Assembly: GCA_037893245.1 (NCBI GenBank)
Contig: JBAIAA010000321.1
Location: forward strand, 1,178,001 to 1,242,000
Origin: Crossaster papposus
Lineage: Eukaryota > Echinodermata > Asteroidea > Velatida > Solasteridae
Direction of reading: 5' to 3'
Length of the DNA stretch: 64,000 bases
The notes under the pieces are model-generated. The model did not search any database, was not told the DNA's origin, and saw only the letters and a list, made by a program, of their open reading frames with translations. Shown piece after piece: positions 15,994 to 64,000 of this stretch. The stretch's first letter is position 1. Every line of letters begins with the position of its first letter. Made by a program: the position numbers and the translations under genes.

Positions 15994-16004
15994 TACCACA
16001 GCAA

Positions 16005-17551: not shown

Positions 17552-17789
17552 TGCGTATTATGTATCTCAGTGCATTAACTGTGATAATTAACCAGAGTAT
17601 TACGACTTACCGTATTAAGTGATTCGGCTGCAGTCGAGCCGTCTTAGGGAAATCACTCGAGTCGAGTTGAGACATAAGGGTCAGTATAGGGTCGAATAAA
17701 GTCGCAGTGTGCATTTTAGTAGAGTCGAGTGAGCAGTTTTTGCCACCCGGCTTGGATATGGTGCTAGGCATTCCGTATCCCCTCCCGAA

Positions 17790-17861
17790 GCGTTGGTGGT
17801 ATAGCGGTTAGAATAGTTGCCTTCCAAGCAATTGACCCGGGTTCAACTCCCGGCCAACGCA
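17790..17861 (+). tRNA. tRNA-Gly(TCC), copy 1, canonical
   Basis: The 72-nt gene folds as a cloverleaf: acceptor GCGTTGG with CCAACGC, anticodon stem GTTGC with GCAAT (one G-T pair), loop CTTCCAA with anticodon TCC at gene positions 34-36 (17823-17825), T stem CCGGG with CCCGG, and discriminator A. No intron and no encoded CCA. The internal Pol III promoter is visible: A box TGGTATAGCGGT (17797-17808) and B box GGTTCAACTCC (17840-17850). The sequence closely resembles other animal glycine TCC tRNAs. It decodes GGA, possibly other glycine codons by wobble. Although it is the edge copy, it matches the commonest sequence of the array. Variants below use gene positions 1-72. Confidence 0.98.
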
Positions 17862-17865
17862 TTTT
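17862..17865 (+). terminator. Pol III terminator, copy 1
   Basis: TTTT follows the discriminator base directly. It is kept in all copies read, including those with a changed last stem base. A second TTTT lies 7 bases further on as a possible backup. Confidence 0.85.
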
Positions 17866-18146
17866 GTTTAATTTTGTATTTAATTTCGGTTTCTTTAAAT
17901 GGTGCTCGTGCGTATTATGTATCTCAGTGCATTAACTGTGATAATTAACCAGAGTATTAAGACTTACCGTATTAAGTGATTCGGCTGCAGTCGAGCCGTC
18001 TTAGGGAAATCACTCGAGTCGAGTTGAGACATAAGGGTCAGTATAGGGTCGAATAAAGTCGCAGTGTGCATTTTAGTAGAGTCGAGTGAGCAGTTTTTGC
18101 CACCCGGCTTGGATATGGTGCTAGGCATTCCGTATCCCCTCCCGAA

Positions 18147-18218
18147 GCGTCGGTGGTATAGCGGTTAGAATAGTTGCCTTCCAAGCAATTGACCCGGGTT
18201 CAACTCCCGGCCAACGCA
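18147..18218 (+). tRNA. tRNA-Gly(TCC), copy 2, T5C
   Basis: T5 to C replaces an acceptor-stem T-A pair by C-A. The same change is in copies 11 and 26. The unit also has an A instead of C in ATTACGACTT of the spacer. Confidence 0.9.
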
Positions 18219-18503
18219 TTTTGTTTAATTTTGTATTTAATTTCGGTTTCTTTAAATGGTGCTCGTGCGTATTATGTATCTCAGTGCATTAACTGTGATA
18301 ATTAACCAGAGTATTACGACTTACCGTATTAAGTGATTCGGCTGCAGTCGAGCCGTCTTAGGGAAATCACTCGAGTCGAGTTGAGACATAAGGGTCAGTA
18401 TAGGGTCGAATAAAGTCGCAGTGTGCATTTTAGTAGAGTCGAGTGAGCAGTTTTTGCCACCCGGCTTGGATATGGTGCTAGGCATTCCGTATCCCCTCCC
18501 GAA

Positions 18504-20003
18504 GCGTTGGTGGTATAGCGGTTAGAATAGTTGCCTTCCAAGCAATTGACCCGGGTTCAACTCCCGGCCAACGCATTTTGTTTAATTTTGTATTTAATTT
18601 CGGTTTCTTTAAATGGTGCTCGTGCGTATTATGTATCTCAGTGCATTAACTGTGATAATTAACCAGAGTATTACGACTTACCGTATTAAGTGATTCGGCT
18701 GCAGTCGAGCCGTCTTAGGGAAATCACTCGAGTCGAGTTGAGACATAAGGGTCAGTATAGGGTCGAATAAAGTCGCAGTGTGCATTTTAGTAGAGTCGAG
18801 TGAGCAGTTTTTGCCACCCGGCTTGGATATGGTGCTAGGCATTCCGTATCCCCTCCCGAAGCGTTGGTGGTATAGCGGTTAGAATAGTTGCCTTCCAAGC
18901 AATTGACCCGGGTTCAACTCCCGGCCAACGCATTTTGTTTAATTTTGTATTTAATTTCGGTTTCTTTAAATGGTGCTCGTGCGTATTATGTATCTCAGTG
19001 CATTAACTGTGATAATTAACCAGAGTATTACGACTTACCGTATTAAGTGATTCGGCTGCAGTCGAGCCGTCTTAGGAAAATCACTCGAGTCGAGTTGAGA
19101 CATAAGGGTCAATATAGGGTCGAATAAAGTCGCAGTGTGCATTTTAGTAGAGTCGAGTGAGCAGTTTTTGCCACCCGGCTTGGATATGGTGCTAGGCATT
19201 CCGTATCCCCTCCCGAAGCGTTGGTGGTATAGCGGTTAGAATAGTTGCCTTCCAAGCAATTGACCCGGGTTCAACTCCCGGCCAACGCATTTTGTTTAAT
19301 TTTGTATTTAATTTCGGTTTCTTTAAATGGTGCTCGTGCGTATTATGTATCTCAGTGCATTAACTGTGATAATTAACCAGAGTATTAAGACTTACGGTAT
19401 TAAGTGATTCGGCTGCAGTCGAGCCGTCTTAGGGAAATCACTCGAGTCGAGTTGAGACATAAGGGTCAGTATAGGGTCGAATAAAGTCGCAGTGTGCATT
19501 TTAGTAGAGTCGAGTGAGCAGTTTTTGCCACCCGGCTTGGATATGGTGCTAGGCATTCCGTATCCCCTCCCGAAGCGTTGGTGGTATAGCGGTTAGAATA
19601 GTTGCCTTCCAAGCAATTGACCCGGGTTCAACTCCCGGCCAACGCATTTTGTTTAATTTTGTATTTAATTTCGGTTTCTTTAAATGGTGCTCGTGCGTAT
19701 TATGTATCTCAGTGCATTAACTGTGATAATTAACCAGAGTATTACGACTTACCGTATTAAGTGATTCGGCTGCAGTCGAGCCGTCTTAGGGAAATCATTC
19801 GAGTCGAGTTGAGACATAAGGGTCAGTATAGGGTCGAATAAAGTCGCAGTGTGCATTTTAGTAGAGTCGAGTGAGCAGTTTTTGCCACCCGGCTTGGATA
19901 TGGTGCTAGGCATTCCGTATCCCCTCCCGAAGCGTTGGTGGTATAGCGGTTAGAATAGTTGCCTTCCAAGCAATTGACCCGGGTTCAACTCCCGGCCAAC
20001 GCA
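18504..20003 (+). tRNA. tRNA-Gly(TCC), copies 3-7, five canonical genes
   Basis: Starts 18504, 18861, 19218, 19575, 19932. Spacer markers: copy 5 has AGGAAAATC and GTCAATATAG, copy 6 has CTTACGG, copy 7 has AATCATTCG. Confidence 0.97.
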
Positions 20004-20288
20004 TTTTGTTTAATTTTGTATTTAATTTCGGTTTCTTTAAATGGTGCTCGTGCGTATTATGTATCTCAGTGCATTAACTGTGATAATTAACCAGAGTATT
20101 AAGACTTACCGTATTAAGTGATTCGGCTGCAGTCGAGCCGTCTTAGGGAAATCACTCGAGTCGAGTTGAGACATAAGGGTCAGTATAGGGTCGAATAAAG
20201 TCGCAGTGTGCATTTTAGTAGAGTCGAGTGAGCAGTTTTTGCCACCCGGCTTGGATATGGTGCTAGGCATTCCGTATCCCCTCCCGAA

Positions 20289-20360
20289 GCGTTGGTGGTA
20301 TAGCGGTTAGAATAGTTGCCTTCCAAGCAATTGACCTGGGTTCAACTCCCGGCCAACGCA
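20289..20360 (+). tRNA. tRNA-Gly(TCC), copy 8, C49T
   Basis: A T-stem C-G pair becomes T-G, which should be tolerated. Seen only here. Confidence 0.93.
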
Positions 20361-20645
20361 TTTTGTTTAATTTTGTATTTAATTTCGGTTTCTTTAAATG
20401 GTGCTCGTGCGTATTATGTATCTCAGTGCATTAACTGTGATAATTAACCAGAGTATTACGACTTACCGTATTAAGTGATTCGGCTGCAGTCGAGCCGTCT
20501 TAGGGAAATCACTCGAGTCGAGTTGAGACATAAGGGTCAGTATAGGGTCGAATAAAGTCGCAGTGTGCATTTTAGTAGAGTCGAGTGAGCAGTTTTTGCC
20601 ACCCGGCTTGGATATGGTGCTAGGCATTCCGTATCCCCTCCCGAA

Positions 20646-21074
20646 GCGTTGGTGGTATAGCGGTTAGAATAGTTGCCTTCCAAGCAATTGACCCGGGTTC
20701 AACTCCCGGCCAACGCATTTTGTTTAATTTTGTATTTAATTTCGGTTTCTTTAAATGGTGCTCGTGCGTATTATGTATCTCAGTGCATTAACTGTGATAA
20801 TTAACCAGAGTATTACGACTTACCGTATTAAGTGATTCGGCTGCAGTCGAGCCGTCTTAGGGAAATCACTCGAGTCGAGTTGAGACATAAGGGTCAGTAT
20901 AGGGTCGAATAAAGTCGCAGTGTGCATTTTAGTAGAGTCGAGTGAGCAGTTTTTGCCACCCGGCTTGGATATGGTGCTAGGCATTCCGTATCCCCTCCCG
21001 AAGCGTTGGTGGTATAGCGGTTAGAATAGTTGCCTTCCAAGCAATTGACCCGGGTTCAACTCCCGGCCAACGCA
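20646..21074 (+). tRNA. tRNA-Gly(TCC), copies 9-10, canonical
   Basis: Starts 20646 and 21003. No spacer marker noticed. Confidence 0.97.
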
Positions 21075-21359
21075 TTTTGTTTAATTTTGTATTTAATTTC
21101 GGTTTCTTTAAATGGTGCTCGTGCGTATTATGTATCTCAGTGCATTAACTGTGATAATTAACCAGAGTATTAAGACTTACCGTATTAAGTGATTCGGCTG
21201 CAGTCGAGCCGTCTTAGGGAAATCACTCGAGTCGAGTTGAGACATAAGGGTCAGTATAGGGTCGAATAAAGTCGCAGTGTGCATTTTAGTAGAGTCGAGT
21301 GAGCAGTTTTTGCCACCCGGCTTGGATATGGTGCTAGGCATTCCGTATCCCCTCCCGAA

Positions 21360-21431
21360 GCGTCGGTGGTATAGCGGTTAGAATAGTTGCCTTCCAAGCA
21401 ATTGACCCGGGTTCAACTCCCGGCCAACGCA
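21360..21431 (+). tRNA. tRNA-Gly(TCC), copy 11, T5C
   Basis: Same acceptor-stem change and same spacer A marker as copy 2, nine units away. Confidence 0.9.
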
Positions 21432-21716
21432 TTTTGTTTAATTTTGTATTTAATTTCGGTTTCTTTAAATGGTGCTCGTGCGTATTATGTATCTCAGTGC
21501 ATTAACTGTGATAATTAACCAGAGTATTACGACTTACCGTATTAAGTGATTCGGCTGCAGTCGAGCCGTCTTAGGGAAATCACTGGAGTCGAGTTGAGAC
21601 ATAAGGGTCAGTATAGGGTCGAATAAAGTCGCAGTGTGCATTTTAGTAGAGTCGAGTGAGCAGTTTTTGCCACCCGGCTTGGATATGGTGCTAGGCATTC
21701 CGTATCCCCTCCCGAA

Positions 21717-24644
21717 GCGTTGGTGGTATAGCGGTTAGAATAGTTGCCTTCCAAGCAATTGACCCGGGTTCAACTCCCGGCCAACGCATTTTGTTTAATT
21801 TTGTATTTAATTTCGGTTTCTTTAAATGGTGCTCGTGCGTATTATGTATCTCAGTGCATTAACTGTGATAATTAACCAGAGTATTACGACTTACCGTATT
21901 AAGTGATTCGGCTGCAGTCGAGCCGTCTTAGGGAAATCACTCGAGTCGAGTTGAGACATAAGGGTCAGTATAGGGTCGAATAAAGTCGCAGTGTGCATTT
22001 TAGTAGAGTCGAGTGAGCAGTTTTTGCCACCCGGCTTGGATATGGTGCTAGGCATTCCGTATCCCCTCCCGAAGCGTTGGTGGTATAGCGGTTAGAATAG
22101 TTGCCTTCCAAGCAATTGACCCGGGTTCAACTCCCGGCCAACGCATTTTGTTTAATTTTGTATTTAATTTCGGTTTCTTTAAATGGTGCTCGTGCGTATT
22201 ATGTATCTCAGTGCATTAACTGTGATAATTAACCAGAGTATTACGACTTACCGTATTAAGTGATTCGGCTGCAGTCGAGCCGTCTTAGGGAAATCACTCG
22301 AGTCGAGTTGAGACATAAGGGTCAGTATAGGGTCGAATAAAGTTGCAGTGTGCATTTTAGTAGAGTCGAGTGAGCAGTTTTTGCCACCCGGCTTGGATAT
22401 GGTGCTAGGCATTCCGTATCCCCTCCCGAAGCGTTGGTGGTATAGCGGTTAGAATAGTTGCCTTCCAAGCAATTGACCCGGGTTCAACTCCCGGCCAACG
22501 CATTTTGTTTAATTTTGTATTTAATTTCGGTTTCTTTAAATGGTGCTCGTGCGTATTATGTATCTCAGTGCATTAACTGTGATAATTAACCAGAGTATTA
22601 CGACTTACCGTATTAAGTGATTCGGCTGCAGTCGAGCCGTCTTAGGAAAATCACTCGAGTCGAGTTGAGACATAAGGGTCAATATAGGGTCGAATAAAGT
22701 CGCAGTGTGCATTTTAGTAGAGTCGAGTGAGCAGTTTTTGCCACCCGGCTTGGATATGGTGCTAGGCATTCCGTATCCCCTCCCGAAGCGTTGGTGGTAT
22801 AGCGGTTAGAATAGTTGCCTTCCAAGCAATTGACCCGGGTTCAACTCCCGGCCAACGCATTTTGTTTAATTTTGTATTTAATTTCGGTTTCTTTAAATGG
22901 TGCTCGTGCGTATTATGTATCTCAGTGCATTAACTGTGATAATTAACCAGAGTATTACGACTTACCGTATTAAGTGATTCGGCTGCAGTCGAGCCGTCTT
23001 AGGGAAATCACTCGAGTCGAGTTGAGACACAAGGGTCAGTATAGGGTCGAATAAAGTCGCAGTGTGCATTTTAGTAGAGTCGAGTGAGCAGTTTTTGCCA
23101 CCCGGCTTGGATATGGTGCTAGGCATTCCGTATCCCCTCCCGAAGCGTTGGTGGTATAGCGGTTAGAATAGTTGCCTTCCAAGCAATTGACCCGGGTTCA
23201 ACTCCCGGCCAACGCATTTTGTTTAATTTTGTATTTAATTTCGGTTTCTTTAAATGGTGCTCGTGCGTATTATGTATCTCAGTGCATTAACTGTGATAAT
23301 TAACCAGAGTATTAAGACTTACCGTATTAAGTGATTCGGCTGCAGTCGAGCCGTCTTAGGGAAATCACTCGAGTCGAGTTGAGACACAAGGGTCAGTATA
23401 GGGTCGAATAAAGTCGCAGTGTGCATTTTAGTAGAGTCGAGTGAGCAGTTTTTGCCACCCGGCTTGGATATGGTGCTAGGCATTCCGTATCCCCTCCCGA
23501 AGCGTTGGTGGTATAGCGGTTAGAATAGTTGCCTTCCAAGCAATTGACCCGGGTTCAACTCCCGGCCAACGCATTTTGTTTAATTTTGTATTTAATTTCG
23601 GTTTCTTTAAATGGTGCTCGTGCGTATTATGTATCTCAGTGCATTAACTGTGATAATTAACCAGAGTATTACGACTTACCGTATTAAGTGATTCGGCTGC
23701 AGTCGAGCCGTCTTAGGGAAATCACTCGAGTCGAGTTGAGACATAAGGGTCAGTATAGGGTCGAATAAAGTCGCAGTGTGCATTTTAGTAGAGTCGAGTG
23801 AGCAGTTTTTGCCACCCGGCTTGGATATGGTGCTAGGCATTCCGTATCCCCTCCCGAAGCGTTGGTGGTATAGCGGTTAGAATAGTTGCCTTCCAAGCAA
23901 TTGACCCGGGTTCAACTCCCGGCCAACGCATTTTGTTTAATTTTGTATTTAATTTCGGTTTCTTTAAATGGTGCTCGTGCGTATTATGTATCTCAGTGCA
24001 TTAACTGTGATAATTAACCAGAGTATTACGACTTACCGTATTAAGTGATTCGGCTGCAGTCGAGCCGTCTTAGGGAAATCACTCGAGTCGAGTTGAGACA
24101 TAAGGGTCAGTATAGGGTCGAATAAAGTCGCAGTGTGCATTTTAGTAGAGTCGAGTGAGCAGTTTTTGCCACCCGGCTTGGATATGGTGCTAGGCATTCC
24201 GTATCCCCTCCCGAAGCGTTGGTGGTATAGCGGTTAGAATAGTTGCCTTCCAAGCAATTGACCCGGGTTCAACTCCCGGCCAACGCATTTTGTTTAATTT
24301 TGTATTTAATTTCGGTTTCTTTAAATGGTGCTCGTGCGTATTATGTATCTCAGTGCATTAACTGTGATAATTAACCAGAGTATTACGACTTACCGTATTA
24401 AGTGATTCGGCTGCAGTCGAGCCGTCTTAGGGAAATCACTGGAGTCGAGTTGAGACATAAGGGTCAGTATAGGGTCGAATAAAGTCGCAGTGTGCATTTT
24501 AGTAGAGTCGAGTGAGCAGTTTTTGCCACCCGGCTTGGATATGGTGCTAGGCATTCCGTATCCCCTCCCGAAGCGTTGGTGGTATAGCGGTTAGAATAGT
24601 TGCCTTCCAAGCAATTGACCCGGGTTCAACTCCCGGCCAACGCA
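21717..24644 (+). tRNA. tRNA-Gly(TCC), copies 12-20, nine canonical genes
   Basis: Starts 21717, 22074, 22431, 22788, 23145, 23502, 23859, 24216, 24573. Copy 15 repeats the two spacer markers of copy 5, ten units away. Copies 16-17 have GACACAAG. Copies 12 and 20 have CACTGGAG, which destroys the CTCGAG palindrome. Confidence 0.97.
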
Positions 24645-24929
24645 TTTTGTTTAATTTTGTATTTAATTTCGGTTTCTTTAAATGGTGCTCGTGCGTATTA
24701 TGTATCTCAGTGCATTAACTGTGATAATTAACCAGAGTATTACGACTTACCGTATTAAGTGATTCGGCTGCAGTCGAGCCGTCTTAGGGAAATCACTGGA
24801 GTCGAGTTGAGACATAAGGGTCAGTATAGGGTCGAATAAAGTCGCAGTGTGCATTTTAGTAGAGTCGAGTGAGCAGTTTTTGCCACCCGGCTTGGATATG
24901 GTGCTAGGCATTCCGTATCCCCTCCCGAA

Positions 24930-25001
24930 GCGTTGTTGGTATAGCGGTTAGAATAGTTGCCTTCCAAGCAATTGACCCGGGTTCAACTCCCGGCCAACGC
25001 A
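24930..25001 (+). tRNA. tRNA-Gly(TCC), copy 21, G7T
   Basis: The last acceptor-stem pair G7-C65 becomes T-C, a mismatch. Linked with CACTGGAG in the spacer. The change recurs in copies 30, 35, 37, 44, 49 and 51. Confidence 0.85.
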
Positions 25002-25286
25002 TTTTGTTTAATTTTGTATTTAATTTCGGTTTCTTTAAATGGTGCTCGTGCGTATTATGTATCTCAGTGCATTAACTGTGATAATTAACCAGAGTATTAC
25101 GACTTACTGTATTAAGTGATTCGGCTGCAGTCGAGCCGTCTTAGGGAAATCACTCGAGTCGAGTTGAGACATAAGGGTCAGTATAGGGTCGAATAAAGTC
25201 GCAGTGTGCATTTTAGTAGAGTCGAGTGAGCAGTTTTTGCCACCCGGCTTGGATATGGTGCTAGGCATTCCGTATCCCCTCCCGAA

Positions 25287-25358
25287 GCGTTGGTTGTATA
25301 GTGGTTTGAATAGTTGCCTTCCAAGCAATTGACCCGGGTTCAACTCCCGGCCAACGCA
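25287..25358 (+). tRNA. tRNA-Gly(TCC), copy 22, G9T C16T A21T
   Basis: Three changes in the D-arm region. G9T and C16T are shared with copies 31 and 45; A21T is private. The spacer has CTTACTG. D-arm function may be weakened, but the anticodon and B box are kept. Confidence 0.8.
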
Positions 25359-25643
25359 TTTTGTTTAATTTTGTATTTAATTTCGGTTTCTTTAAATGGT
25401 GCTCGTGCGTATTATGTATCTCAGTGCATTAACTGTGATAATTAACCAGAGTATTACGACTTACCGTATTAAGTGATTCGGCTGCAGTCGAGCCGTCTTA
25501 GGGAAATCACTCGAGTCGAGTTGAGACATAAGGGTCAGTATAGGGTCGAATAAAGTCGCAGTGTGCATTTTAGTAGAGTCGAGTGAGCAGTTTTTGCCAC
25601 CCGGCTTGGATATGGTGCTAGGCATTCCGTATCCCCTCCCGAA

Positions 25644-26429
25644 GCGTTGGTGGTATAGCGGTTAGAATAGTTGCCTTCCAAGCAATTGACCCGGGTTCAA
25701 CTCCCGGCCAACGCATTTTGTTTAATTTTGTATTTAATTTCGGTTTCTTTAAATGGTGCTCGTGCGTATTATGTATCTCAGTGCATTAACTGTGATAATT
25801 AACCAGAGTATTACGACTTACCGTATTAAGTGATTCGGCTGCAGTCGAGCCGTCTTAGGGAAATCACTCGAGTCGAGTTGAGACATAAGGGTCAGTATAG
25901 GGTCGAATAAAGTCGCAGTGTGCATTTTAGTAGAGTCGAGTGAGCAGTTTTTGCCACCCGGCTTGGATATGGTGCTAGGCATTCCGTATCCCCTCCCGAA
26001 GCGTTGGTGGTATAGCGGTTAGAATAGTTGCCTTCCAAGCAATTGACCCGGGTTCAACTCCCGGCCAACGCATTTTGTTTAATTTTGTATTTAATTTCGG
26101 TTTCTTTAAATGGTGCTCGTGCGTATTATGTATCTCAGTGCATTAACTGTGATAATTAACCAGAGTATTACGACTTACCGTATTAAGTGATTCGGCTGCA
26201 GTCGAGCCGTCTTAGGGAAATCACTCGAGTCGAGTTGAGACATAAGGGTCAGTATAGGGTCGAATAAAGTCGCAGTGTGCATTTTAGTAGAGTCGAGTGA
26301 GCAGTTTTTGCCACCCGGCTTGGATATGGTGCTAGGCATTCCGTATCCCCTCCCGAAGCGTTGGTGGTATAGCGGTTAGAATAGTTGCCTTCCAAGCAAT
26401 TGACCCGGGTTCAACTCCCGGCCAACGCA
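25644..26429 (+). tRNA. tRNA-Gly(TCC), copies 23-25, canonical
   Basis: Starts 25644, 26001, 26358. Confidence 0.97.
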
Positions 26430-26714
26430 TTTTGTTTAATTTTGTATTTAATTTCGGTTTCTTTAAATGGTGCTCGTGCGTATTATGTATCTCAGTGCAT
26501 TAACTGTGATAATTAACCAGAGTATTACGACTTACCGTATTAAGTGATTCGGCTGCAGTCGAGCCGTCTTAGGGAAATCACTCGAGTCGAGTTGAGACAT
26601 AAGGGTCAGTATAGGGTCGAATAAAGTCGCAGTGTGCATTTTAGTAGAGTCGAGTGAGCAGTTTTTGCCACCCGGCTTGGATATGGTGCTAGGCATTCCG
26701 TATCCCCTCCCGAA

Positions 26715-26786
26715 GCGTCGGTGGTATAGCGGTTAGAATAGTTGCCTTCCAAGCAATTGACCCGGGTTCAACTCCCGGCCAACGCA
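26715..26786 (+). tRNA. tRNA-Gly(TCC), copy 26, T5C
   Basis: T5C as in copies 2 and 11, but without their spacer A marker, so linkage was broken by exchange or the change arose twice. Confidence 0.9.
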
Positions 26787-27071
26787 TTTTGTTTAATTTT
26801 GTATTTAATTTCGGTTTCTTTAAATGGTGCTCGTGCGTATTATGTATCTCAGTGCATTAACTGTGATAATTAACCAGAGTATTACGACTTACCGTATTAA
26901 GTGATTCGGCTGCAGTCGAGCCGTCTTAGGGAAATCACTCGAGTCGAGTTGAGACATAAGGGTCAGTATAGGGTCGAATAAAGTCGCAGTGTGCATTTTA
27001 GTAGAGTCGAGTGAGCAGTTTTTGCCACCCGGCTTGGATATGGTGCTAGGCATTCCGTATCCCCTCCCGAA

Positions 27072-27857
27072 GCGTTGGTGGTATAGCGGTTAGAATAGTT
27101 GCCTTCCAAGCAATTGACCCGGGTTCAACTCCCGGCCAACGCATTTTGTTTAATTTTGTATTTAATTTCGGTTTCTTTAAATGGTGCTCGTGCGTATTAT
27201 GTATCTCAGTGCATTAACTGTGATAATTAACCAGAGTATTACGACTTACCGTATTAAGTGATTCGGCTGCAGTCGAGCCGTCTTAGGGAAATCACTCGAG
27301 TCGAGTTGAGACATAAGGGTCAGTATAGGGTCGAATAAAGTCGCAGTGTGCATTTTAGTAGAGTCGAGTGAGCAGTTTTTGCCACCCGGCTTGGATATGG
27401 TGCTAGGCATTCCGTATCCCCTCCCGAAGCGTTGGTGGTATAGCGGTTAGAATAGTTGCCTTCCAAGCAATTGACCCGGGTTCAACTCCCGGCCAACGCA
27501 TTTTGTTTAATTTTGTATTTAATTTCGGTTTCTTTAAATGGTGCTCGTGCGTATTATGTATCTCAGTGCATTAACTGTGATAATTAACCAGAGTATTACG
27601 ACTTACCGTATTAAGTGATTCGGCTGCAGTCGAGCCGTCTTAGGGAAATCACTCGAGTCGAGTTGAGACATAAGGGTCAGTATAGGGTCGAATAAAGTCG
27701 CAGTGTGCATTTTAGTAGAGTCGAGTGAGCAGTTTTTGCCACCCGGCTTGGATATGGTGCTAGGCATTCCGTATCCCCTCCCGAAGCGTTGGTGGTATAG
27801 CGGTTAGAATAGTTGCCTTCCAAGCAATTGACCCGGGTTCAACTCCCGGCCAACGCA
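27072..27857 (+). tRNA. tRNA-Gly(TCC), copies 27-29, canonical
   Basis: Starts 27072, 27429, 27786. Confidence 0.97.
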
Positions 27858-52419: not shown

Positions 52420-54276
52420 GCGTTGGTGGTATAGCGGTTAGAATAGTTGCCTTCCAAGCAATTGACCCGGGTTCAACTCCCGGCCAACGCATTTTGTTTA
52501 ATTTTGTATTTAATTTCGGTTTCTTTAAATGGTGCTCGTGCGTATTATGTATCTCAGTGCATTAACTGTGATAATTAACCAGAGTATTACGACTTACCGT
52601 ATTAAGTGATTCGGCTGCAGTCGAGCCGTCTTAGGGAAATCACTCGAGTCGAGTTGAGACATAAGGGTCAGTATAGGGTCGAATAAAGTCGCAGTGTGCA
52701 TTTTAGTAGAGTCGAGTGAGCAGTTTTTGCCACCCGGCTTGGATATGGTGCTAGGCATTCCGTATCCCCTCCCGAAGCGTTGGTGGTATAGCGGTTAGAA
52801 TAGTTGCCTTCCAAGCAATTGACCCGGGTTCAACTCCCGGCCAACGCATTTTGTTTAATTTTGTATTTAATTTCGGTTTCTTTAAATGGTGCTCGTGCGT
52901 ATTATGTATCTCAGTGCATTAACTGTGATAATTAACCAGAGTATTACGACTTACCGTATTAAGTGATTCGGCTGCAGTCGAGCCGTCTTAGGGAAATCAC
53001 TCGAGTCGAGTTGAGACATAAGGGTCAGTATAGGGTCGAATAAAGTCGCAGTGTGCATTTTAGTAGAGTCGAGTGAGCAGTTTTTGCCACCCGGCTTGGA
53101 TATGGTGCTAGGCATTCCGTATCCCCTCCCGAAGCGTTGGTGGTATAGCGGTTAGAATAGTTGCCTTCCAAGCAATTGACCCGGGTTCAACTCCCGGCCA
53201 ACGCATTTTGTTTAATTTTGTATTTAATTTCGGTTTCTTTAAATGGTGCTCGTGCGTATTATGTATCTCAGTGCATTAACTGTGATAATTAACCAGAGTA
53301 TTACGACTTACCGTATTAAGTGATTCGGCTGCAGTCGAGCCGTCTTAGGGAAATCACTCGAGTCGAGTTGAGACATAAGGGTCAGTATAGGGTCGAATAA
53401 AGTCGCAGTGTGCATTTTAGTAGAGTCGAGTGAGCAGTTTTTTCCACCCGGCTTGGATATGGTGCTAGGCATTCCGTATCCCCTCCCGAAGCGTTGGTGG
53501 TATAGCGGTTAGAATAGTTGCCTTCCAAGCAATTGACCCGGGTTCAACTCCCGGCCAACGCATTTTGTTTAATTTTGTATTTAATTTCGGTTTCTTTAAA
53601 TGGTGCTCGTGCGTATTATGTATCTCAGTGCATTAACTGTGATAATTAACCAGAGTATTACGACTTATCGTATTAAGTGATTCGGCTGCAGTCGAGCCGT
53701 CTTAGGGAAATCACTCGAGTCGAGTTGAGACATAAGGGTCAGTATAGGGTCGAATAAAGTCGCAGTGTGCATTTTAGTAGAGTCGAGTGAGCAGTTTTTG
53801 CCACCCGGCTTGGATATGGTGCTAGGCATTCCGTATCCCCTCCCGAAGCGTTGGTGGTATAGCGGTTAGAATAGTTGCCTTCCAAGCAATTGACCCGGGT
53901 TCAACTCCCGGCCAACGCATTTTGTTTAATTTTGTATTTAATTTCGGTTTCTTTAAATGGTGCTCGTGCGTATTATGTATCTCAGTGCATTAACTGTGAT
54001 AATTAACCAGAGTATTACGACTTACCGTATTAAGTGATTCAGCTGCAGTCGAGCCGTCTTAGGGAAATCACTCGAGTCGAGTTGAGACATAAGGGTCAGT
54101 ATAGGGTCGAATAAAGTCGCAGTGTGCATTTTAGTAGAGTCGAGTGAGCAGTTTTTGCCACCCGGCTTGGATATGGTGCTAGGCATTCCGTATCCCCTCC
54201 CGAAGCGTTGGTGGTATAGCGGTTAGAATAGTTGCCTTCCAAGCAATTGACCCGGGTTCAACTCCCGGCCAACGCA
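52420..54276 (+). tRNA. tRNA-Gly(TCC), copies 98-103, six canonical genes
   Basis: Starts 52420, 52777, 53134, 53491, 53848, 54205. Copy 101 has TTTTTTCC, copy 102 CTTATCG, copy 103 a private GATTCAGC. Confidence 0.97.
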
Positions 54277-54561
54277 TTTTGTTTAATTTTGTATTTAATT
54301 TCGGTTTCTTTAAATGGTGCTCGTGCGTATTATGTATCTCAGTGCATTAACTGCGATAATTAACCAGAGTATTACGACTTACCGTATTAAGTGATTCGGC
54401 TGCAGTCGAGCCGTCTTAGGGAAATCACTCGAGTCGAGTTGAGACATAAGGGTCAGTATAGGGTCGAATAAAGTCGCAGTGTGCATTTTAGTAGAGTCGA
54501 GTGAGCAGTTTTTGCCACCCGGCTTGGATATGGTGCTAGGCATTCCGTATCCCCTCCCGAA

Positions 54562-54633
54562 GCGTTGGTGGTATAGCGGTTAGAATAGTTGCCTTCCATG
54601 CAATTGACCCGGGTTCAACTCCCGGCCAACGCA
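54562..54633 (+). tRNA. tRNA-Gly(TCC), copy 104, A38T
   Basis: Starts the second 7-unit block of this region; matches copy 97. Confidence 0.85.
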
Positions 54634-54918
54634 TTTTGTTTAATTTTGTATTTATTTTCGGTTTCTTTAAATGGTGCTCGTGCGTATTATGTATCTCAGT
54701 GCATTAACTGTGATAATTAACCAGAGTATTACGACTTACCGTATTAAGTGATTCGGCTGCAGTCGAGCCGTCTTAGGGAAATCACTCGAGTCGAGTTGAG
54801 ACATAAGGGTCAGTATAGGGTCGAATAAAGTCGCAGTGTGCATTTTAGTAGAGTCGAGTGAGCAGTTTTTGCCACCCGGCTTGGATATGGTGCTAGGCAT
54901 TCCGTATCCCCTCCCGAA

Positions 54919-56775
54919 GCGTTGGTGGTATAGCGGTTAGAATAGTTGCCTTCCAAGCAATTGACCCGGGTTCAACTCCCGGCCAACGCATTTTGTTTAA
55001 TTTTGTATTTAATTTCGGTTTCTTTAAATGGTGCTCGTGCGTATTATGTATCTCAGTGCATTAACTGTGATAATTAACCAGAGTATTACGACTTACCGTA
55101 TTAAGTGATTCGGCTGCAGTCGAGCCGTCTTAGGGAAATCACTCGAGTCGAGTTGAGACATAAGGGTCAGTATAGGGTCGAATAAAGTCGCAGTGTGCAT
55201 TTTAGTAGAGTCGAGTGAGCAGTTTTTGCCACCCGGCTTGGATATGGTGCTAGGCATTCCGTATCCCCTCCCGAAGCGTTGGTGGTATAGCGGTTAGAAT
55301 AGTTGCCTTCCAAGCAATTGACCCGGGTTCAACTCCCGGCCAACGCATTTTGTTTAATTTTGTATTTAATTTCGGTTTCTTTAAATGGTGCTCGTGCGTA
55401 TTATGTATCTCAGTGCATTAACTGTGATAATTAACCAGAGTATTACGACTTACCGTATTAAGTGATTCGGCTGCAGTCGAGCCGTCTTAGGGAAATCACT
55501 CGAGTCGAGTTGAGACATAAGGGTCAGTATAGGGTCGAATAAAGTCGCAGTGTGCATTTTAGTAGAGTCGAGTGAGCAGTTTTTGCCACCCGGCTTGGAT
55601 ATGGTGCTAGGCATTCCGTATCCCCTCCCGAAGCGTTGGTGGTATAGCGGTTAGAATAGTTGCCTTCCAAGCAATTGACCCGGGTTCAACTCCCGGCCAA
55701 CGCATTTTGTTTAATTTTGTATTTAATTTCGGTTTCTTTAAATGGTGCTCGTGCGTATTATGTATCTCAGTGCATTAACTGTGATAATTAACCAGAGTAT
55801 TACGACTTACCGTATTAAGTGATTCGGCTGCAGTCGAGCCGTCTTAGGGAAATCACTCGAGTCGAGTTGAGACATAAGGGTCAGTATAGGGTCGAATAAA
55901 GTCGCAGTGTGCATTTTAGTAGAGTCGAGTGAGCAGTTTTTTCCACCCGGCTTGGATATGGTGCTAGGCATTCCGTATCCCCTCCCGAAGCGTTGGTGGT
56001 ATAGCGGTTAGAATAGTTGCCTTCCAAGCAATTGACCCGGGTTCAACTCCCGGCCAACGCATTTTGTTTAATTTTGTATTTAATTTCGGTTTCTTTAAAT
56101 GGTGCTCGTGCGTATTATGTATCTCAGTGCATTAACTGTGATAATTAACCAGAGTATTACGACTTATCGTATTAAGTGATTCGGCTGCAGTCGAGCCGTC
56201 TTAGGGAAATCACTCGAGTCGAGTTGAGACATAAGGGTCAGTATAGGGTCGAATAAAGTCGCAGTGTGCATTTTAGTAGAGTCGAGTGAGCAGTTTTTGC
56301 CACCCGGCTTGGATATGGTGCTAGGCATTCCGTATCCCCTCCCGAAGCGTTGGTGGTATAGCGGTTAGAATAGTTGCCTTCCAAGCAATTGACCCGGGTT
56401 CAACTCCCGGCCAACGCATTTTGTTTAATTTTGTATTTAATTTCGGTTTCTTTAAATGGTGCTCGTGCGTATTATGTATCTCAGTGCATTAACTGTGATA
56501 ATTAACCAGAGTATTACGACTTACCGTATTAAGTGATTCGGCTGCAGTCGAGCCGTCTTAGGGAAATCACTCGAGTCGAGTTGAGACATAAGGGTCAGTA
56601 TAGGGTCGAATAAAGTCGCAGTGTGCATTTTAGTAGAGTCGAGTGAGCAGTTTTTGCCACCCGGCTTGGATATGGTGCTAGGCATTCCGTATCCCCTCCC
56701 GAAGCGTTGGTGGTATAGCGGTTAGAATAGTTGCCTTCCAAGCAATTGACCCGGGTTCAACTCCCGGCCAACGCA
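54919..56775 (+). tRNA. tRNA-Gly(TCC), copies 105-110, six canonical genes
   Basis: Starts 54919, 55276, 55633, 55990, 56347, 56704. Copies 108 and 109 repeat the TTTTTTCC and CTTATCG markers of 101 and 102. Confidence 0.97.
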
Positions 56776-57060
56776 TTTTGTTTAATTTTGTATTTAATTT
56801 CGGTTTCTTTAAATGGTGCTCGTGCGTATTATGTATCTCAGTGCATTAACTGTGATAATTAACCAGAGTATTACGACTTACCGTATTAAGTGATTCGGCT
56901 GCAGTCGAGCCGTCTTAGGGAAATCACTCGAGTCGAGTTGAGACATAAGGGTCAGTATAGGGTCGAATAAAGTCGCAGTGTGCATTTTAGTAGAGTCGAG
57001 TGAGCAGTTTTTGCCACCCGGCTTGGATATGGTGCTAGGCATTCCGTATCCCCTCCCGAA

Positions 57061-57132
57061 GCGTTGGTGGTATAGCGGTTAGAATAGTTGCCTTCCAAGC
57101 AAATGACCCGGGTTCAACTCCCGGCCAACGCA
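57061..57132 (+). tRNA. tRNA-Gly(TCC), copy 111, T43A
   Basis: The outer anticodon-stem G27-T43 pair becomes G-A; seen only here. Confidence 0.88.
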
Positions 57133-57417
57133 TTTTGTTTAATTTTGTATTTAATTTCGGTTTCTTTAAATGGTGCTCGTGCGTATTATGTATCTCAGTG
57201 CATTAACTGTGATAATTAACCAGAGTATTACGACTTACCGTATTAAGTGATTCGGCTGCAGTCGAGCCGTCTTAGGGAAATCACTCGAGTCGAGTTGAGA
57301 CATAAGGGTCAGTATAGGGTCGAATAAAGTCGCAGTGTGCATTTTAGTAGAGTCGAGTGAGCAGTTTTTGCCACCCGGCTTGGATATGGTGCTAGGCATT
57401 CCGTATCCCCTCCCGAA

Positions 57418-58203
57418 GCGTTGGTGGTATAGCGGTTAGAATAGTTGCCTTCCAAGCAATTGACCCGGGTTCAACTCCCGGCCAACGCATTTTGTTTAAT
57501 TTTGTATTTAATTTCGGTTTCTTTAAATGGTGCTCGTGCGTATTATGTATCTCAGTGCATTAACTGTGATAATTAACCAGAGTATTACGACTTACCGTAT
57601 TAAGTGATTCGGCTGCAGTCGAGCCGTCTTAGGGAAATCACTCGAGTCGAGTAGAGACATAAGGGTCAGTATAGGGTCGAATAAAGTCGCATTGTGCATT
57701 TTAGTAGAGTCGAGTGAGCAGTTTTTGCCACCCGGCTTGGATATGGTGCTAGGCATTCCGTATCCCCTCCCGAAGCGTTGGTGGTATAGCGGTTAGAATA
57801 GTTGCCTTCCAAGCAATTGACCCGGGTTCAACTCCCGGCCAACGCATTTTGTTTAATTTTGTATTTAATTTCGGTTTCTTTAAATGGTGCTCGTGCGTAT
57901 GATGTATCTCAGTGCATTAACTGTGATAATTAACCAGAGTATTACGACTTACCGTATTAAGTGATTCGGCTGCAGTCGAGCCGTCTTAGGGAAATCACTG
58001 GAGTCGAGTTGAGACATAAGGGTCAGTATAGGGTCGAATAAAGTCGCAGTGTGCATTTTAGTAGAGTCGAGTGAGCAGTTTTTGCCACCCGGCTTGGATA
58101 TGGTGCTAGGCATTCCGTATCCCCTCCCGAAGCGTTGGTGGTATAGCGGTTAGAATAGTTGCCTTCCAAGCAATTGACCCGGGTTCAACTCCCGGCCAAC
58201 GCA
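57418..58203 (+). tRNA. tRNA-Gly(TCC), copies 112-114, canonical
   Basis: Starts 57418, 57775, 58132. Copy 113 has GAGTAGAGAC and GCATTGTG; copy 114 has CGTATGATG and CACTGGAG. Confidence 0.97.
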
Positions 58204-58488
58204 TTTTGTTTAATTTTGTATTTAATTTCGGTTTCTTTAAATGGTGCTCGTGCGTATTATGTATCTCAGTGCATTAACTGTGATAATTAACCAGAGTATT
58301 ACGACTTACCGTATTAAGTGATTCGGCTGCAGTCGAGCCGTCTTAGGGAAATCACTCGAGTCGAGTTGAGACATAAGGGTCAGTATAGGGTCGAATAAAG
58401 TCGCAGTGTGCATTTTAGTAGAGTCGAGTGAGCAGTTTTTGCCACCCGGCTTGGATATGGTGCTAGGCATTCCGTATCCCCTCCCGAA

Positions 58489-58560
58489 ACGTTGGTGGTA
58501 TAGCGGTTAGAATAGTTGCCTTCCAAGCAATTGACCCGGGTTCAACTCCCGGCCAACGCA
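58489..58560 (+). tRNA. tRNA-Gly(TCC), copy 115, G1A
   Basis: The first base is A, giving A-C in place of the terminal acceptor pair G1-C71. The tail has AAATTGTGC. Also in copies 122 and 130. Confidence 0.82.
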
Positions 58561-58845
58561 TTTTGTTTAATTTTGTATTTAATTTCGGTTTCTTTAAATT
58601 GTGCTCGTGCGTATTATGTATCTCAGTGCATTAACTGTGATAATTAACCAGAGTATTACGACTTACCGTATTAAGTGATTCGGCTGCAGTCGAGCCGTCT
58701 TAGGGAAATCACTCGAGTCGAGTTGAGACATAAGGGTCAGTATAGGGTCGAATAAAGTCGCAGTGTGCATTTTAGTAGAGTTGAGTGAGCAGTTTTTGCC
58801 ACCCGGCTTGGATATGGTGCTAGGCATTCCGTATCCCCTCCCGAA

Positions 58846-59274
58846 GCGTTGGTGGTATAGCGGTTAGAATAGTTGCCTTCCAAGCAATTGACCCGGGTTC
58901 AACTCCCGGCCAACGCATTTTGTTTAATTTTGTATTTAATTTCGGTTTCTTTAAATGGTGCTCGTGCGTATTATGTATCTCAGTGCATTAACTGTGATAA
59001 TTAACCAGAGTATTACGACTTACCGTATTAAGTGATTCGGCTGCAGTCGAGCCGTCTTAGGGAAATCACTCGAGTCGAGTTGAGACATAAGGGTCAGTAT
59101 AGGGTCGAATAAAGTCGCAGTGTGCATTTTAGTAGAGTCGAGTGAGCAGTTTTTGCCACCCGGCTTGGATATGGTGCTAGGCATTCCGTATCCCCTCCCG
59201 AAGCGTTGGTGGTATAGCGGTTAGAATAGTTGCCTTCCAAGCAATTGACCCGGGTTCAACTCCCGGCCAACGCA
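58846..59274 (+). tRNA. tRNA-Gly(TCC), copies 116-117, canonical
   Basis: Starts 58846 and 59203. Copy 116 has GAGTTGAGTG; copy 117 has a private TTTGGTCTTT tail. Confidence 0.97.
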
Positions 59275-59559
59275 TTTTGTTTAATTTGGTCTTTAATTTC
59301 GGTTTCTTTAAATGGTGCTCGTGCGTATTATGTATCTCAGTGTATTAACTGTGATAATTAACCAGAGTATTACGACTTACCGTATTAAGTGATTCGGCTG
59401 CAGTCGAGCCGTCTTAGGGAAATCACTCGAGTCGAGTTGAGACATAAGGGTCAGTATAGGGTCGAATAAAGTCGCAGTGTGCATTTGAGTAGAGTCGAGT
59501 GAGCAGTTTTTGCCACCCGGCTTGGATATGGTGCTAGGCATTCCGTATCCCCTCCCGAA

Positions 59560-59631
59560 GCGTTGGTGGTATAGCGGTTAGAATAGTTGCCTTCCAAGCA
59601 ATTGACCCCGGTTCAACTCCCGGCCAACGCA
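59560..59631 (+). tRNA. tRNA-Gly(TCC), copy 118, G50C
   Basis: The central T-stem pair G-C becomes C-C. Unit markers CAGTGTATT and CATTTGAG. Duplicate of copy 125. Confidence 0.8.
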
Positions 59632-59916
59632 TTTTGTTTAATTTTGTATTTAATTTCGGTTTCTTTAAATGGTGCTCGTGCGTATTATGTATCTCAGTGC
59701 ATTAACTGTGATAATTAACCAGAGTATTACGACTTACCGTATTAAGTGATTCGGCTGCAGTCGAGCCGTCTTAGGGAAATCACTCGAGTCGAGTTGAGAC
59801 ATAAGGGTCAGTATAGGTTCGAATAAAGTCGCAGTGTGCATTTTAGTAGAGTCGAGTGAGCAGTTTTTGCCACCCGGCTTGGATATGGTGCTAGGCATTC
59901 CGTATCCCCTCCCGAA

Positions 59917-60702
59917 GCGTTGGTGGTATAGCGGTTAGAATAGTTGCCTTCCAAGCAATTGACCCGGGTTCAACTCCCGGCCAACGCATTTTGTTTAATT
60001 TTGTATTTAATTTCGGTTTCTTTAAATGGTGCTCGTGCGTATTATGTATCTCAGTGCATTAACTGTGATAATTAACCAGAGTATTACGACTTACCGTATT
60101 AAGTGATTCGGCTGCAGTCGAGCCGTCTTAGGGAAATCACTCGAGTCGAGTAGAGACATAAGGGTCAGTATAGGGTCGAATAAAGTCGCATTGTGCATTT
60201 TAGTAGAGTCGAGTGAGCAGTTTTTGCCACCCGGCTTGGATATGGTGCTAGGCATTCCGTATCCCCTCCCGAAGCGTTGGTGGTATAGCGGTTAGAATAG
60301 TTGCCTTCCAAGCAATTGACCCGGGTTCAACTCCCGGCCAACGCATTTTGTTTAATTTTGTATTTAATTTCGGTTTCTTTAAATGGTGCTCGTGCGTATG
60401 ATGTATCTCAGTGCATTAACTGTGATAATTAACCAGAGTATTACGACTTACCGTATTAAGTGATTCGGCTGCAGTCGAGCCGTCTTAGGGAAATCACTGG
60501 AGTCGAGTTGAGACATAAGGGTCAGTATAGGGTCGAATAAAGTCGCAGTGTGCATTTTAGTAGAGTCGAGTGAGCAGTTTTTGCCACCCGGCTTGGATAT
60601 GGTGCTAGGCATTCCGTATCCCCTCCCGAAGCGTTGGTGGTATAGCGGTTAGAATAGTTGCCTTCCAAGCAATTGACCCGGGTTCAACTCCCGGCCAACG
60701 CA
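59917..60702 (+). tRNA. tRNA-Gly(TCC), copies 119-121, canonical
   Basis: Starts 59917, 60274, 60631. Copy 119 has AGGTTCGAATAA, a closer B-box look-alike in the spacer; 120 and 121 repeat the markers of 113 and 114. Confidence 0.97.
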
Positions 60703-60987
60703 TTTTGTTTAATTTTGTATTTAATTTCGGTTTCTTTAAATGGTGCTCGTGCGTATTATGTATCTCAGTGCATTAACTGTGATAATTAACCAGAGTATTA
60801 CGACTTACCGTATTAAGTGATTCGGCTGCAGTCGAGCCGTCTTAGGGAAATCACTCGAGTCGAGTTGAGACATAAGGGTCAGTATAGGGTCGAATAAAGT
60901 CGCAGTGTGCATTTTAGTAGAGTCGAGTGAGCAGTTTTTGCCACCCGGCTTGGATATGGTGCTAGGCATTCCGTATCCCCTCCCGAA

Positions 60988-61059
60988 ACGTTGGTGGTAT
61001 AGCGGTTAGAATAGTTGCCTTCCAAGCAATTGACCCGGGTTCAACTCCCGGCCAACGCA
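60988..61059 (+). tRNA. tRNA-Gly(TCC), copy 122, G1A
   Basis: Matches copy 115 in gene and tail. Confidence 0.82.
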
Positions 61060-61344
61060 TTTTGTTTAATTTTGTATTTAATTTCGGTTTCTTTAAATTG
61101 TGCTCGTGCGTATTATGTATCTCAGTGCATTAACTGTGATAATTAACCAGAGTATTACGACTTACCGTATTAAGTGATTCGGCTGCAGTCGAGCCGTCTT
61201 AGGGAAATCACTCGAGTCGAGTTGAGACATAAGGGTCAGTATAGGGTCGAATAAAGTCGCAGTGTGCATTTTAGTAGAGTTGAGTGAGCAGTTTTTGCCA
61301 CCCGGCTTGGATATGGTGCTAGGCATTCCGTATCCCCTCCCGAA

Positions 61345-61773
61345 GCGTTGGTGGTATAGCGGTTAGAATAGTTGCCTTCCAAGCAATTGACCCGGGTTCA
61401 ACTCCCGGCCAACGCATTTTGTTTAATTTTGTATTTAATTTCGGTTTCTTTAAATGGTGCTCGTGCGTATTATGTATCTCAGTGCATTAACTGTGATAAT
61501 TAACCAGAGTATTACGACTTACCGTATTAAGTGATTCGGCTGCAGTCGAGCCGTCTTAGGGAAATCACTCGAGTCGAGTTGAGACATAAGGGTCAGTATA
61601 GGGTCGAATAAAGTCGCAGTGTGCATTTTAGTAGAGTCGAGTGAGCAGTTGTTGCCACCCGGCTTGGATATGGTGCTAGGCATTCCGTATCCCCTCCCGA
61701 AGCGTTGGTGGTATAGCGGTTAGAATAGTTGCCTTCCAAGCAATTGACCCGGGTTCAACTCCCGGCCAACGCA
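61345..61773 (+). tRNA. tRNA-Gly(TCC), copies 123-124, canonical
   Basis: Starts 61345 and 61702. Copy 123 has GAGTTGAGTG; copy 124 has a private CAGTTGTTGCC. Confidence 0.97.
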
Positions 61774-62058
61774 TTTTGTTTAATTTTGTATTTAATTTCG
61801 GTTTCTTTAAATGGTGCTCGTGCGTATTATGTATCTCAGTGTATTAACTGTGATAATTAACCAGAGTATTACGACTTACCGTATTAAGTGATTCGGCTGC
61901 AGTCGAGCCGTCTTAGGGAAATCACTCGAGTCGAGTTGAGACATAAGGGTCAGTATAGGGTCGAATAAAGTCGCAGTGTGCATTTGAGTAGAGTCGAGTG
62001 AGCAGTTTTTGCCACCCGGCTTGGATATGGTGCTAGGCATTCCGTATCCCCTCCCGAA

Positions 62059-62130
62059 GCGTTGGTGGTATAGCGGTTAGAATAGTTGCCTTCCAAGCAA
62101 TTGACCCCGGTTCAACTCCCGGCCAACGCA
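62059..62130 (+). tRNA. tRNA-Gly(TCC), copy 125, G50C
   Basis: Matches copy 118 in gene and spacer, seven units away. Confidence 0.8.
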
Positions 62131-62415
62131 TTTTGTTTAATTTTGTATTTAATTTCGGTTTCTTTAAATGGTGCTCGTGCGTATTATGTATCTCAGTGCA
62201 TTAACTGTGATAATTAACCAGAGTATTACGACTTACCGTATTAAGTGATTCGGCTGCAGTCGAGCCGTCTTAGGGAAATCACTCGAGTCGAGTTGAGACG
62301 TAAGGGTCAGTATAGGTTCGAATAAAGTCGCAGTGTGCATTTTAGTAGAGTCGAGTGAGCAGTTTTTGCCACCCGGCTTGGATATGGTGCTAGGCATTCC
62401 GTATCCCCTCCCGAA

Positions 62416-63558
62416 GCGTTGGTGGTATAGCGGTTAGAATAGTTGCCTTCCAAGCAATTGACCCGGGTTCAACTCCCGGCCAACGCATTTTGTTTAATTT
62501 TGTATTTAATTTCGGTTTCTTTAAATGGTGCTCGTGCGTATTATGTATCTCAGTGCATTAACTGTGATAATTAACCAGAGTATTACGACTTACTGTATTA
62601 AGTGATTCGGCTGCAGTCGAGCCGTCTTAGGGAAATCACTCGAGTCGACTTGAGACATAAGGGTCAGTATAGGGTCGAATAAAGTCGCAGTGTGCATTTT
62701 AGTAGAGTCGAGTGAGCAGTTTTTGCCACCCGGCTTGGATATTGTGCTAGGCATTCCGTATCCCCTCCCGAAGCGTTGGTGGTATAGCGGTTAGAATAGT
62801 TGCCTTCCAAGCAATTGACCCGGGTTCAACTCCCGGCCAACGCATTTTGTTTAATTTTGTATTTAATTTCGGTTTCTTTAAATGGTGCTCGTGCGTATTA
62901 TGTATCTCAGTGCATTAACTGTGATAATTAACCAGAGTATTACGACTTACCGTATTAAGTGATTCGGCTGCAGTCGAGCCGTCTTAGGGAAATCACTCGA
63001 GTCGAGTAGAGACATAAGGGTCAGTATAGGGTCGAATAAAGTCGCATTGTGCATTTTAGTAGAGTCGAGTGAGCAGTTTTTGCCACCCGGCTTGGATATG
63101 GTGCTAGGCATTCCGTATCCCCTCCCGAAGCGTTGGTGGTATAGCGGTTAGAATAGTTGCCTTCCAAGCAATTGACCCGGGTTCAACTCCCGGCCAACGC
63201 ATTTTGTTTAATTTTGTATTTAATTTCGGTTTCTTTAAATGGTGCTCGTGCGTATGATGTATCTCAGTGCATTAACTGTGATAATTAACCAGAGTATTAC
63301 GACTTACCGTATTAAGTGATTCGGCTGCAGTCGAGCCGTCTTAGGGAAATCACTGGAGTCGAGTTGAGACATAAGGGTCAGTATAGGGTCGAATAAAGTC
63401 GCAGTGTGCATTTTAGTAGAGTCGAGTGAGCAGTTTTTGCCACCCGGCTTGGATATGGTGCTAGGCATTCCGTATCCCCTCCCGAAGCGTTGGTGGTATA
63501 GCGGTTAGAATAGTTGCCTTCCAAGCAATTGACCCGGGTTCAACTCCCGGCCAACGCA
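62416..63558 (+). tRNA. tRNA-Gly(TCC), copies 126-129, canonical
   Basis: Starts 62416, 62773, 63130, 63487. Copy 126 repeats the AGGTTCGAATAA spacer. Copy 127 is an extra unit not in the 7-unit pattern (GTCGACTTGAG, GATATTGTGC). Copies 128-129 restart the pattern. Confidence 0.97.
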
Positions 63559-63843
63559 TTTTGTTTAATTTTGTATTTAATTTCGGTTTCTTTAAATGGT
63601 GCTCGTGCGTATTATGTATCTCAGTGCATTAACTGTGATAATTAACCAGAGTATTACGACTTACCGTATTAAGTGATTCGGCTGCAGTCGAGCCGTCTTA
63701 GGGAAATCACTCGAGTCGAGTTGAGACATAAGGGTCAGTATAGGGTCGAATAAAGTCGCAGTGTGCATTTTAGTAGAGTCGAGTGAGCAGTTTTTGCCAC
63801 CCGGCTTGGATATGGTGCTAGGCATTCCGTATCCCCTCCCGAA

Positions 63844-63915
63844 ACGTTGGTGGTATAGCGGTTAGAATAGTTGCCTTCCAAGCAATTGACCCGGGTTCAA
63901 CTCCCGGCCAACGCA
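63844..63915 (+). tRNA. tRNA-Gly(TCC), copy 130, G1A
   Basis: Last complete tRNA in the window; matches copies 115 and 122. Confidence 0.82.
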
Positions 63916-64000
63916 TTTTGTTTAATTTTGTATTTAATTTCGGTTTCTTTAAATTGTGCTCGTGCGTATTATGTATCTCAGTGCATTAACTGTGATAATT

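Follow-up and report, generated by a model that had tools for sequence, protein, structure and literature searches.

A near-homogeneous tandem array of tRNA-Gly(TCC) genes with a decayed margin in the sea star Crossaster papposus

The stretch of DNA analysed here, referred to as the window, comprises 64,000 nucleotides of the sea star Crossaster papposus (C321:1178001–1242000) in an assembly of 1,023,315,904 bases and 1,841 contigs; C321, C800 and similar handles are contig numbers within that assembly. Most of the window is taken up by a tandem array of tRNA-Gly(TCC) genes, preceded by a flank with remnants of transposable elements. An earlier reading of the letters alone (the sequence-only reading) had noticed this array, and its observation was correct and understated.

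The tRNA-Gly array and its genes

The array was first delimited with gene and repeat finders. ARAGORN identified 130 tRNA-Gly(TCC) genes in the window, all on the + strand, the first at 17790–17861 and the last at 63844–63915, while Tandem Repeats Finder (TRF) returned a single array with a period of 357, 130.1 copies and 99% matches. The units run head to tail, each consisting of a 285-bp spacer and a 72-bp tRNA gene, which is the arrangement of a tandem tRNA gene (tDNA) array. The gene-to-gene spacing is 357 bp in 128 of the 129 steps and 358 bp in the other. Mean identity to the consensus was 99.6%, with a worst value of 93.8%, for the 126 of 130 units that could be located by exact motif. 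A chance occurrence is excluded. The gene number (at least 130), the single orientation, the 357-bp repeat and the 285-bp spacer given by the sequence-only reading were thus all borne out; its start, placed at 17552, had to be moved to the position in Table 1.

The tRNA genes of the array are intact by sequence. Four copies were scored against the Rfam tRNA model; three reached 61.8 bits and one 57.6 bits, all above the gathering score of 29 bits. The internal promoter was scored using A box and B box patterns that we take to be the consensus. Both boxes and the TTTT terminator of RNA polymerase III (Pol III) were present together in 125 of the 130 copies, so that the copies carry the covariance score (in those scored), promoter boxes and T-run expected of functional tRNA genes. 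The tRNA bodies are identical in 94 of the 130 copies, and every copy has the anticodon TCC.

Other contents of the unit were also considered. An Rfam search of two units (E up to 10) gave solely the tRNA above the gathering score, ruling out an additional known RNA gene within the spacer. Within the array TRF found only the 357-bp period, except for an 18-bp, 1.9-copy row at the left edge, which rules out short tandem repeats between genes of the type seen in Entamoeba. A tRNA-derived short interspersed element (SINE) is ruled out as well, the Gly copies being tandem at fixed spacing and not dispersed by retroposition.

Table 1. Features of the window (window coordinates)
Feature	Position	Strand	Basis or remark
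5′ flank	416–16554		pieces colinear with C800 at ~579–594 kb, which likewise adjoin the array
Dispersed repeat adjoining the first, truncated array unit	16690–17537		similar stretches elsewhere; not at the colinear place on C800
Tandem array, 357-bp unit, 130 tRNA-Gly(TCC) genes	17548–64000	+	ARAGORN, TRF; extends to the end of C321
Representative consensus tRNA-Gly(TCC), copy 3	18504–18575	+	Rfam tRNA 61.8 bits, 1–71 of 71
A box of copy 3, TGGTATAGCGG	18511–18521	+	pattern kept in 127/130 copies
B box of copy 3, GGTTCAACTCC	18554–18564	+	pattern kept in 128/130 copies
TTTT Pol III terminator directly 3′ of copy 3	18576–18579	+	130/130 copies
Block duplications: units 113–115 recur as 120–122 and 128–130 with the same rare variants	57533–63958	+	variant sharing

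Extent, margin and flank

The sequence-only reading had taken the array to be open at the right and the true count to be higher, and this proved to be so. All ten probes between 1242001 and the end of C321 at 1395822 lay inside the array, which is therefore about 200 kb long on this contig. On C165 the array starts near 1031 kb and continues to the contig end at 1269.8 kb with its tRNAs on the minus strand (7/7 interior and end probes), apart from one exact tRNA copy on the plus strand at 1226590; its outer units drop to 95.5%, 88.8% and, partly, 79.0% identity. On C667 all eight probes over 294 kb were array, and on C800 an interrupted array reaches from base 1 to roughly 577.5 kb. A 46-base core of the tRNA has 2,849 exact matches across the genome, and 3,473 sites (819 plus, 2,654 minus) match the 72-base tRNA with up to three mismatches. 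The contig census of such frequent patterns is incomplete and places rest on the matches listed; among these, Gly copies occur on five contigs, C165, C321, C667, C800 and, with few copies, C118. On C118 the 72-nt array tRNA has three exact copies; no array spacer was recognised around these three, and a 78% unit remnant lies near one of them. If C321 and C800 are alleles, the haploid copy count is lower.

The homogeneity noted earlier holds for the window stretch and fails on C800, where a core and a margin can be distinguished. In the core, units at 1, 50, 100 and 125 kb (4/4 probes) are 99.4–100% identical to the window consensus. In the margin (150–577 kb) identity falls to 91–95% for most whole units and to 88.5% for one, and the units nearest the flank (~576.2–577.5 kb) are oriented opposite to the others. 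Array was present in 14 of 20 margin probes and absent at 280, 420, 450, 460, 480 and 500 kb, a share that does not estimate array content because some probes sat on known copies. The claim of a single isoacceptor likewise stands for the window and not for the genome, owing to tRNA-Lys(TTT) arrays described below and to altered anticodons in the Gly array elsewhere. A Gly body with the anticodon CCC was found on C800, which holds all 77 exact matches to a 45-base stretch of it; ARAGORN took Gly bodies with TTC, seen in two C800 probes and one C165 probe, for Glu. If transcribed and charged, such TTC-bearing bodies could misread GAA.

The window flank ties C321 to C800. Eleven of 21 BLAST rows were colinear, with 83–98% identity (mean 90.7%) over 6.7 kb aligned; the ten rows excluded comprised five from the array and five that were not colinear. 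Because of this shared flank, C321 and C800 hold the same locus, either as alleles or as a duplication. The parts without a colinear match include most of 6.2–9.8 kb, 13.4–16.3 kb, and 16690–17537. The first holds a broken transposase (Pfam DDE_Tnp_1_7; 6930–8555, minus) and the second pieces of pol (RVT_1, RT_RNaseH; 13658–15992, minus) with an integrase match below its cut-off; we presume these to be piggyBac-like and Gypsy-like, respectively. The third is the dispersed repeat of Table 1, for which 95 matches, including the window itself, were found among the best 40 of 2,398 candidates scored. Part of it recurs at 486-bp spacing on two other contigs (C20, 370–549 kb; C186, 2822–2826 kb). 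On C321 the core meets the flank across this repeat, without a margin, and we read the missing margin as a loss there. The 3′ flank of the C165 array gave just weak 72–80% pieces inside the repeat unit against C800 probes, and no match at E 1e-20 against the other sampled loci (L004–L006 excluded), so the two sides of the array were not tied together. The window flank also contains G or C runs of up to about 50 bases, at 4521–4560 and 12817–12847 (by eye) and at 4700–4752 and 6776–6816 (by TRF).

A second array type is formed by tRNA-Lys(TTT), with 785 sites genome-wide at up to three mismatches, which lie, among the matches listed, on C479, C424, C1268 and C1448; the end of C1268 gave no Lys match. 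On C479 the places listed range from about 19 to 486 kb, with a unit of about 572–576 bp. The C424 unit is longer, about 770 bp, and its copies form two opposite-facing groups, minus at 1269–1326 kb and plus at 1359–1376 kb. By eye the C424 unit also appears to have a Tyr-like tRNA stretch, where ARAGORN called solely Lys. There was no convincing similarity between the Lys and Gly spacers. A genome search with RF00005 scored the best 63 of 213,984 candidates, and other arrays may therefore exist.

Turnover, constraint and competing explanations

Rare variants in the window units reveal how the array changes. Besides the recurring blocks of Table 1, units 35–41 and 49–55 have rare variants in common, and the sharing of rare variants at a lag of seven units was 0.195 per pair, compared with a maximum of 0.171 in 500 shuffles. 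One window variant was found at seven sites on C321 and one on C800, and one variant pair had all five of its sites on C321. Unequal exchange of short blocks would produce recurring variant blocks of this kind and is their probable cause. The 99.6% identity, the recurring blocks and the difference between core and margin are together what concerted evolution would leave, and we infer that this process homogenises the units.

Next we compared the tRNA with the spacer. The evidence for constraint comes from the comparison of core and margin. When the core was set against 22 margin units of C800, the majority state differed at 15 positions, none of them in the tRNA (one-sided P = 0.034), and with 13 margin units and an 80% cut-off 0 of 12 differences fell in the tRNA. 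Further single-unit margin differences were at 1.3% for the tRNA, against 2.6% for the spacer. A cell-wise comparison of the 13 margin units gave 1.7% in the tRNA versus 6.5% in the spacer, with a P value (3e-10) that is not to be trusted at face value because related units were counted as independent. The exact tRNA copies on C118, with no recognised array spacer around them, also count on this side. On these modest numbers, selection probably maintains the tRNA type of the core.

Several results weigh against a selected function. In the window core, the tRNA accounts for 18 of the 65 variant types, with 20% expected from its 72 of 357 positions (P = 0.16). Sampled units beyond the window on C321 had variants at 5/1,008 tRNA versus 10/3,988 spacer positions, those in the C165 interior at 1/720 versus 8/2,844, and those on C667 at 2/792 versus 10/3,119, none of these differences being significant. 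Among 85 Lys units, 17 of 111 variant types were in the tRNA (12.8% expected, P = 0.39), and in the Gly array variant types private to margin units were not significantly rarer in the tRNA (15/101, P = 0.21). Constraint on individual copies is thus not supported in any of these sets, changes in the acceptor stem persist among copies, and we conclude that single copies would be expendable. The case for function accordingly rests on the 15 core/margin differences. Not all variants are local either, since another one is common to C321, C667 and C800 (three, three and one sites). The CpG evidence is mixed, its two signals pointing opposite ways. The observed-to-expected CpG ratio is 1.18 in the unit, which is thus not poor in CpG (the 48 flank intervals have a median of 0.81, and eight of them reach 1.18), while among variant types C/G transitions occur more often at CpG sites (9/42) than elsewhere (9/118; P = 0.022), a hint of germline methylation.

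The sequence-only reading had named three candidate functions, a bulk supply of glycine tRNA, a chromatin or insulator block through TFIIIC and a satellite that took up a tRNA gene, and the present results narrow the choice. On balance we lean, by no great measure, towards an array organised like ribosomal DNA (rDNA): a tandem multigene family of Pol III tRNA-Gly(UCC) genes in which the tRNA type is selected, likely for bulk output. Unequal exchange would duplicate and delete blocks of a few units and thereby yield a near-identical core; units at the edge would escape homogenisation, decay, take insertions and change anticodon; and enough copies would be transcribed for selection to hold the tRNA type in the core, leaving any one copy dispensable. 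Bulk supply is possible given that the promoter boxes and terminators are intact and that 0 of 15 core/margin differences lie in the tRNA. The output would most likely be needed at some particular stage, with many copies silent elsewhere. The oocyte or early embryo is our first choice, because the tandem tRNA genes specific to oocytes in Xenopus are described as becoming active when the zygotic genome is activated (PMC11500080, a commentary on Parasyraki et al. 2024) and a similar role has been hypothesised for the tRNA genes of zebrafish chromosome 4 (PMC11075544). Close behind stands a passive satellite, in which unequal exchange spreads a 357-bp repeat whose tRNA gene is there by chance, and the tRNA copies are silent or irrelevant. 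We regard this as a serious contender, though a less probable one. It accounts for the architecture and for the lack of constraint within the core, tRNA variation being no lower than spacer variation in either the Gly core or the Lys array, and for the persistence of copies with altered anticodons and acceptor stems; part of the adjoining dispersed repeat makes 486-bp satellites, so satellites arise readily in this genome. The 0/15 result is less easily explained by it, and the fact that both Gly and Lys genes form large arrays, with spacers that are unrelated, speaks for a cause linked to tRNA genes. The long homogeneous stretch with decayed edges is that of a satellite, whereas the unit is not non-coding, since it holds a tRNA gene of intact sequence.

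Two further explanations appear much less probable. TFIIIC-bound repeats might serve as a boundary, a replication-pause site or a centromere-like block. Centromeric satellites also have a core with a decayed margin, which the interrupted margin here resembles, and 128 of the 130 B boxes are intact; however, one would look for a centromere satellite on most chromosomes, whereas the Gly copies listed lie on five contigs, and we think such a role improbable. Least probable of all, and in our judgement very unlikely, is that a far smaller array was multiplied by the assembler. C321, C165 and C800 do each have a contig end that falls within the array, and on C667 both ends and all six intervening probes are array. 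Yet the units hold many rare variants in irregular order, and C800 passes from core through margin into flank, which argues against a pure assembly artefact. Nor are high counts peculiar to this assembly, two assemblies of the sea star Asterias amurensis being reported with 6,779 and 14,926 tRNAs (PMC11090083, PMC10625585).

A broader scheme is offered as speculation, and we consider it doubtful. By analogy with Xenopus but by separate evolution, sea stars might keep developmental reservoirs of chosen tRNAs in large arrays with one per isoacceptor (the GGA-reading tRNA-Gly and the AAA-reading tRNA-Lys), which would be turned on while oocytes grow or at genome activation; the decaying margin would breed new isoacceptors (CCC, TTC). 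With core, margin and flank on one contig, the Gly array lets an extreme tRNA gene number be examined, and because margin and core variants tag transcripts, the choice between dosage, selfish spread and chromatin becomes testable.

Other tRNA loci and known systems

Some other tRNA loci were encountered. Thr(GGT)-like copies are scattered on several contigs (8/9 loci called Thr) and are probably a tRNA-derived SINE family, two loci having common flanking sequence by eye. The 5.3-Mb contig C8 is bacterial in type, with an uninterrupted COX1-family gene and a Lys/Asn tRNA cluster, and is probably a contaminant or an associated bacterium. In the mitochondrial contig C1841 the cox1 frame contains 13 in-frame TGA codons; translated with AAA as Asn, ATA as Ile and AGA as Ser (the echinoderm code), it yields what we take to be conserved cox1 motifs. 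Between nad1 (by eye, reversed) and cox1 it has tRNAs for Leu, Gly, Tyr, Met, Cys, Trp, Leu, Asn and Pro on the minus strand and for Asp, Val, Ala and Gln on the plus strand. The strands of this cluster agree with the minority-strand genes given for sea stars (PMC8933410), so that code and gene order of the mitochondrion both mark the animal as a sea star.

Among the papers listed no report of such an array in an echinoderm was found, a weak negative that covers titles and abstract openings and few subscription journals. The Asterias amurensis counts hint, short of proof, that arrays of this kind are more widespread among sea stars; tRNA counts given for sea stars, such as these two for one species, may depend on the way in which arrays are assembled.

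Units of tandem tRNA genes are known from Entamoeba, where 25 unit types hold almost all tRNA genes, up to five per unit, with short tandem repeats between the genes in E. histolytica; its authors thought many copies inactive, called the function obscure and proposed concerted evolution (PMC2652664). The present array resembles these in its head-to-tail units, in the uniformity of most copies within an isolate and in having some dispersed copies. It differs in belonging to an animal, in having one tRNA per unit and no short repeats, and in that large arrays involve, so far, two isoacceptors.

Among animals, the Xenopus genes are likewise a tandem tRNA array, there transcribed by Pol III and here known from sequence. 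Xenopus units are a few kb long and contain several different tRNA genes, unlike the 357-bp unit with one tRNA described here. Nematostella has more than 17,000 tRNA genes and pseudogenes, and clustered tDNA also occurs in zebrafish and stickleback (PMC2888827, PMC11075544). These animals share the abundance of clustered tRNA genes; however, their largest clusters are given as having 'fifty and more members', and in Nematostella and zebrafish the neighbours are mostly mixed. The Pro, Ser-Tyr-Tyr and Cys clusters of Arabidopsis and the Ile cluster of maize (PMC11700998, PMC12308677, PMC10701932) are tandem, have a single or few isoacceptors, and include a 0.4-kb tRNA-Cys unit and unit-wise changes of copy number. 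They have four to 28 units, whereas single contigs here hold hundreds. Most silencing is reported for Arabidopsis, whose clusters are said to be largely silenced (PMC12308677, PMC10701932), from which it follows that tandem, intact tRNA genes can be mostly silent.

The tandem tRNA array is thus a known kind of locus, and those published and compared here are mixed in type or have tens of units. A single animal assembly here holds close matches to one tRNA-Gly gene at about 3,500 sites and to one tRNA-Lys gene at about 800. The size, the purity and the core–margin structure, in an animal, are new to us.

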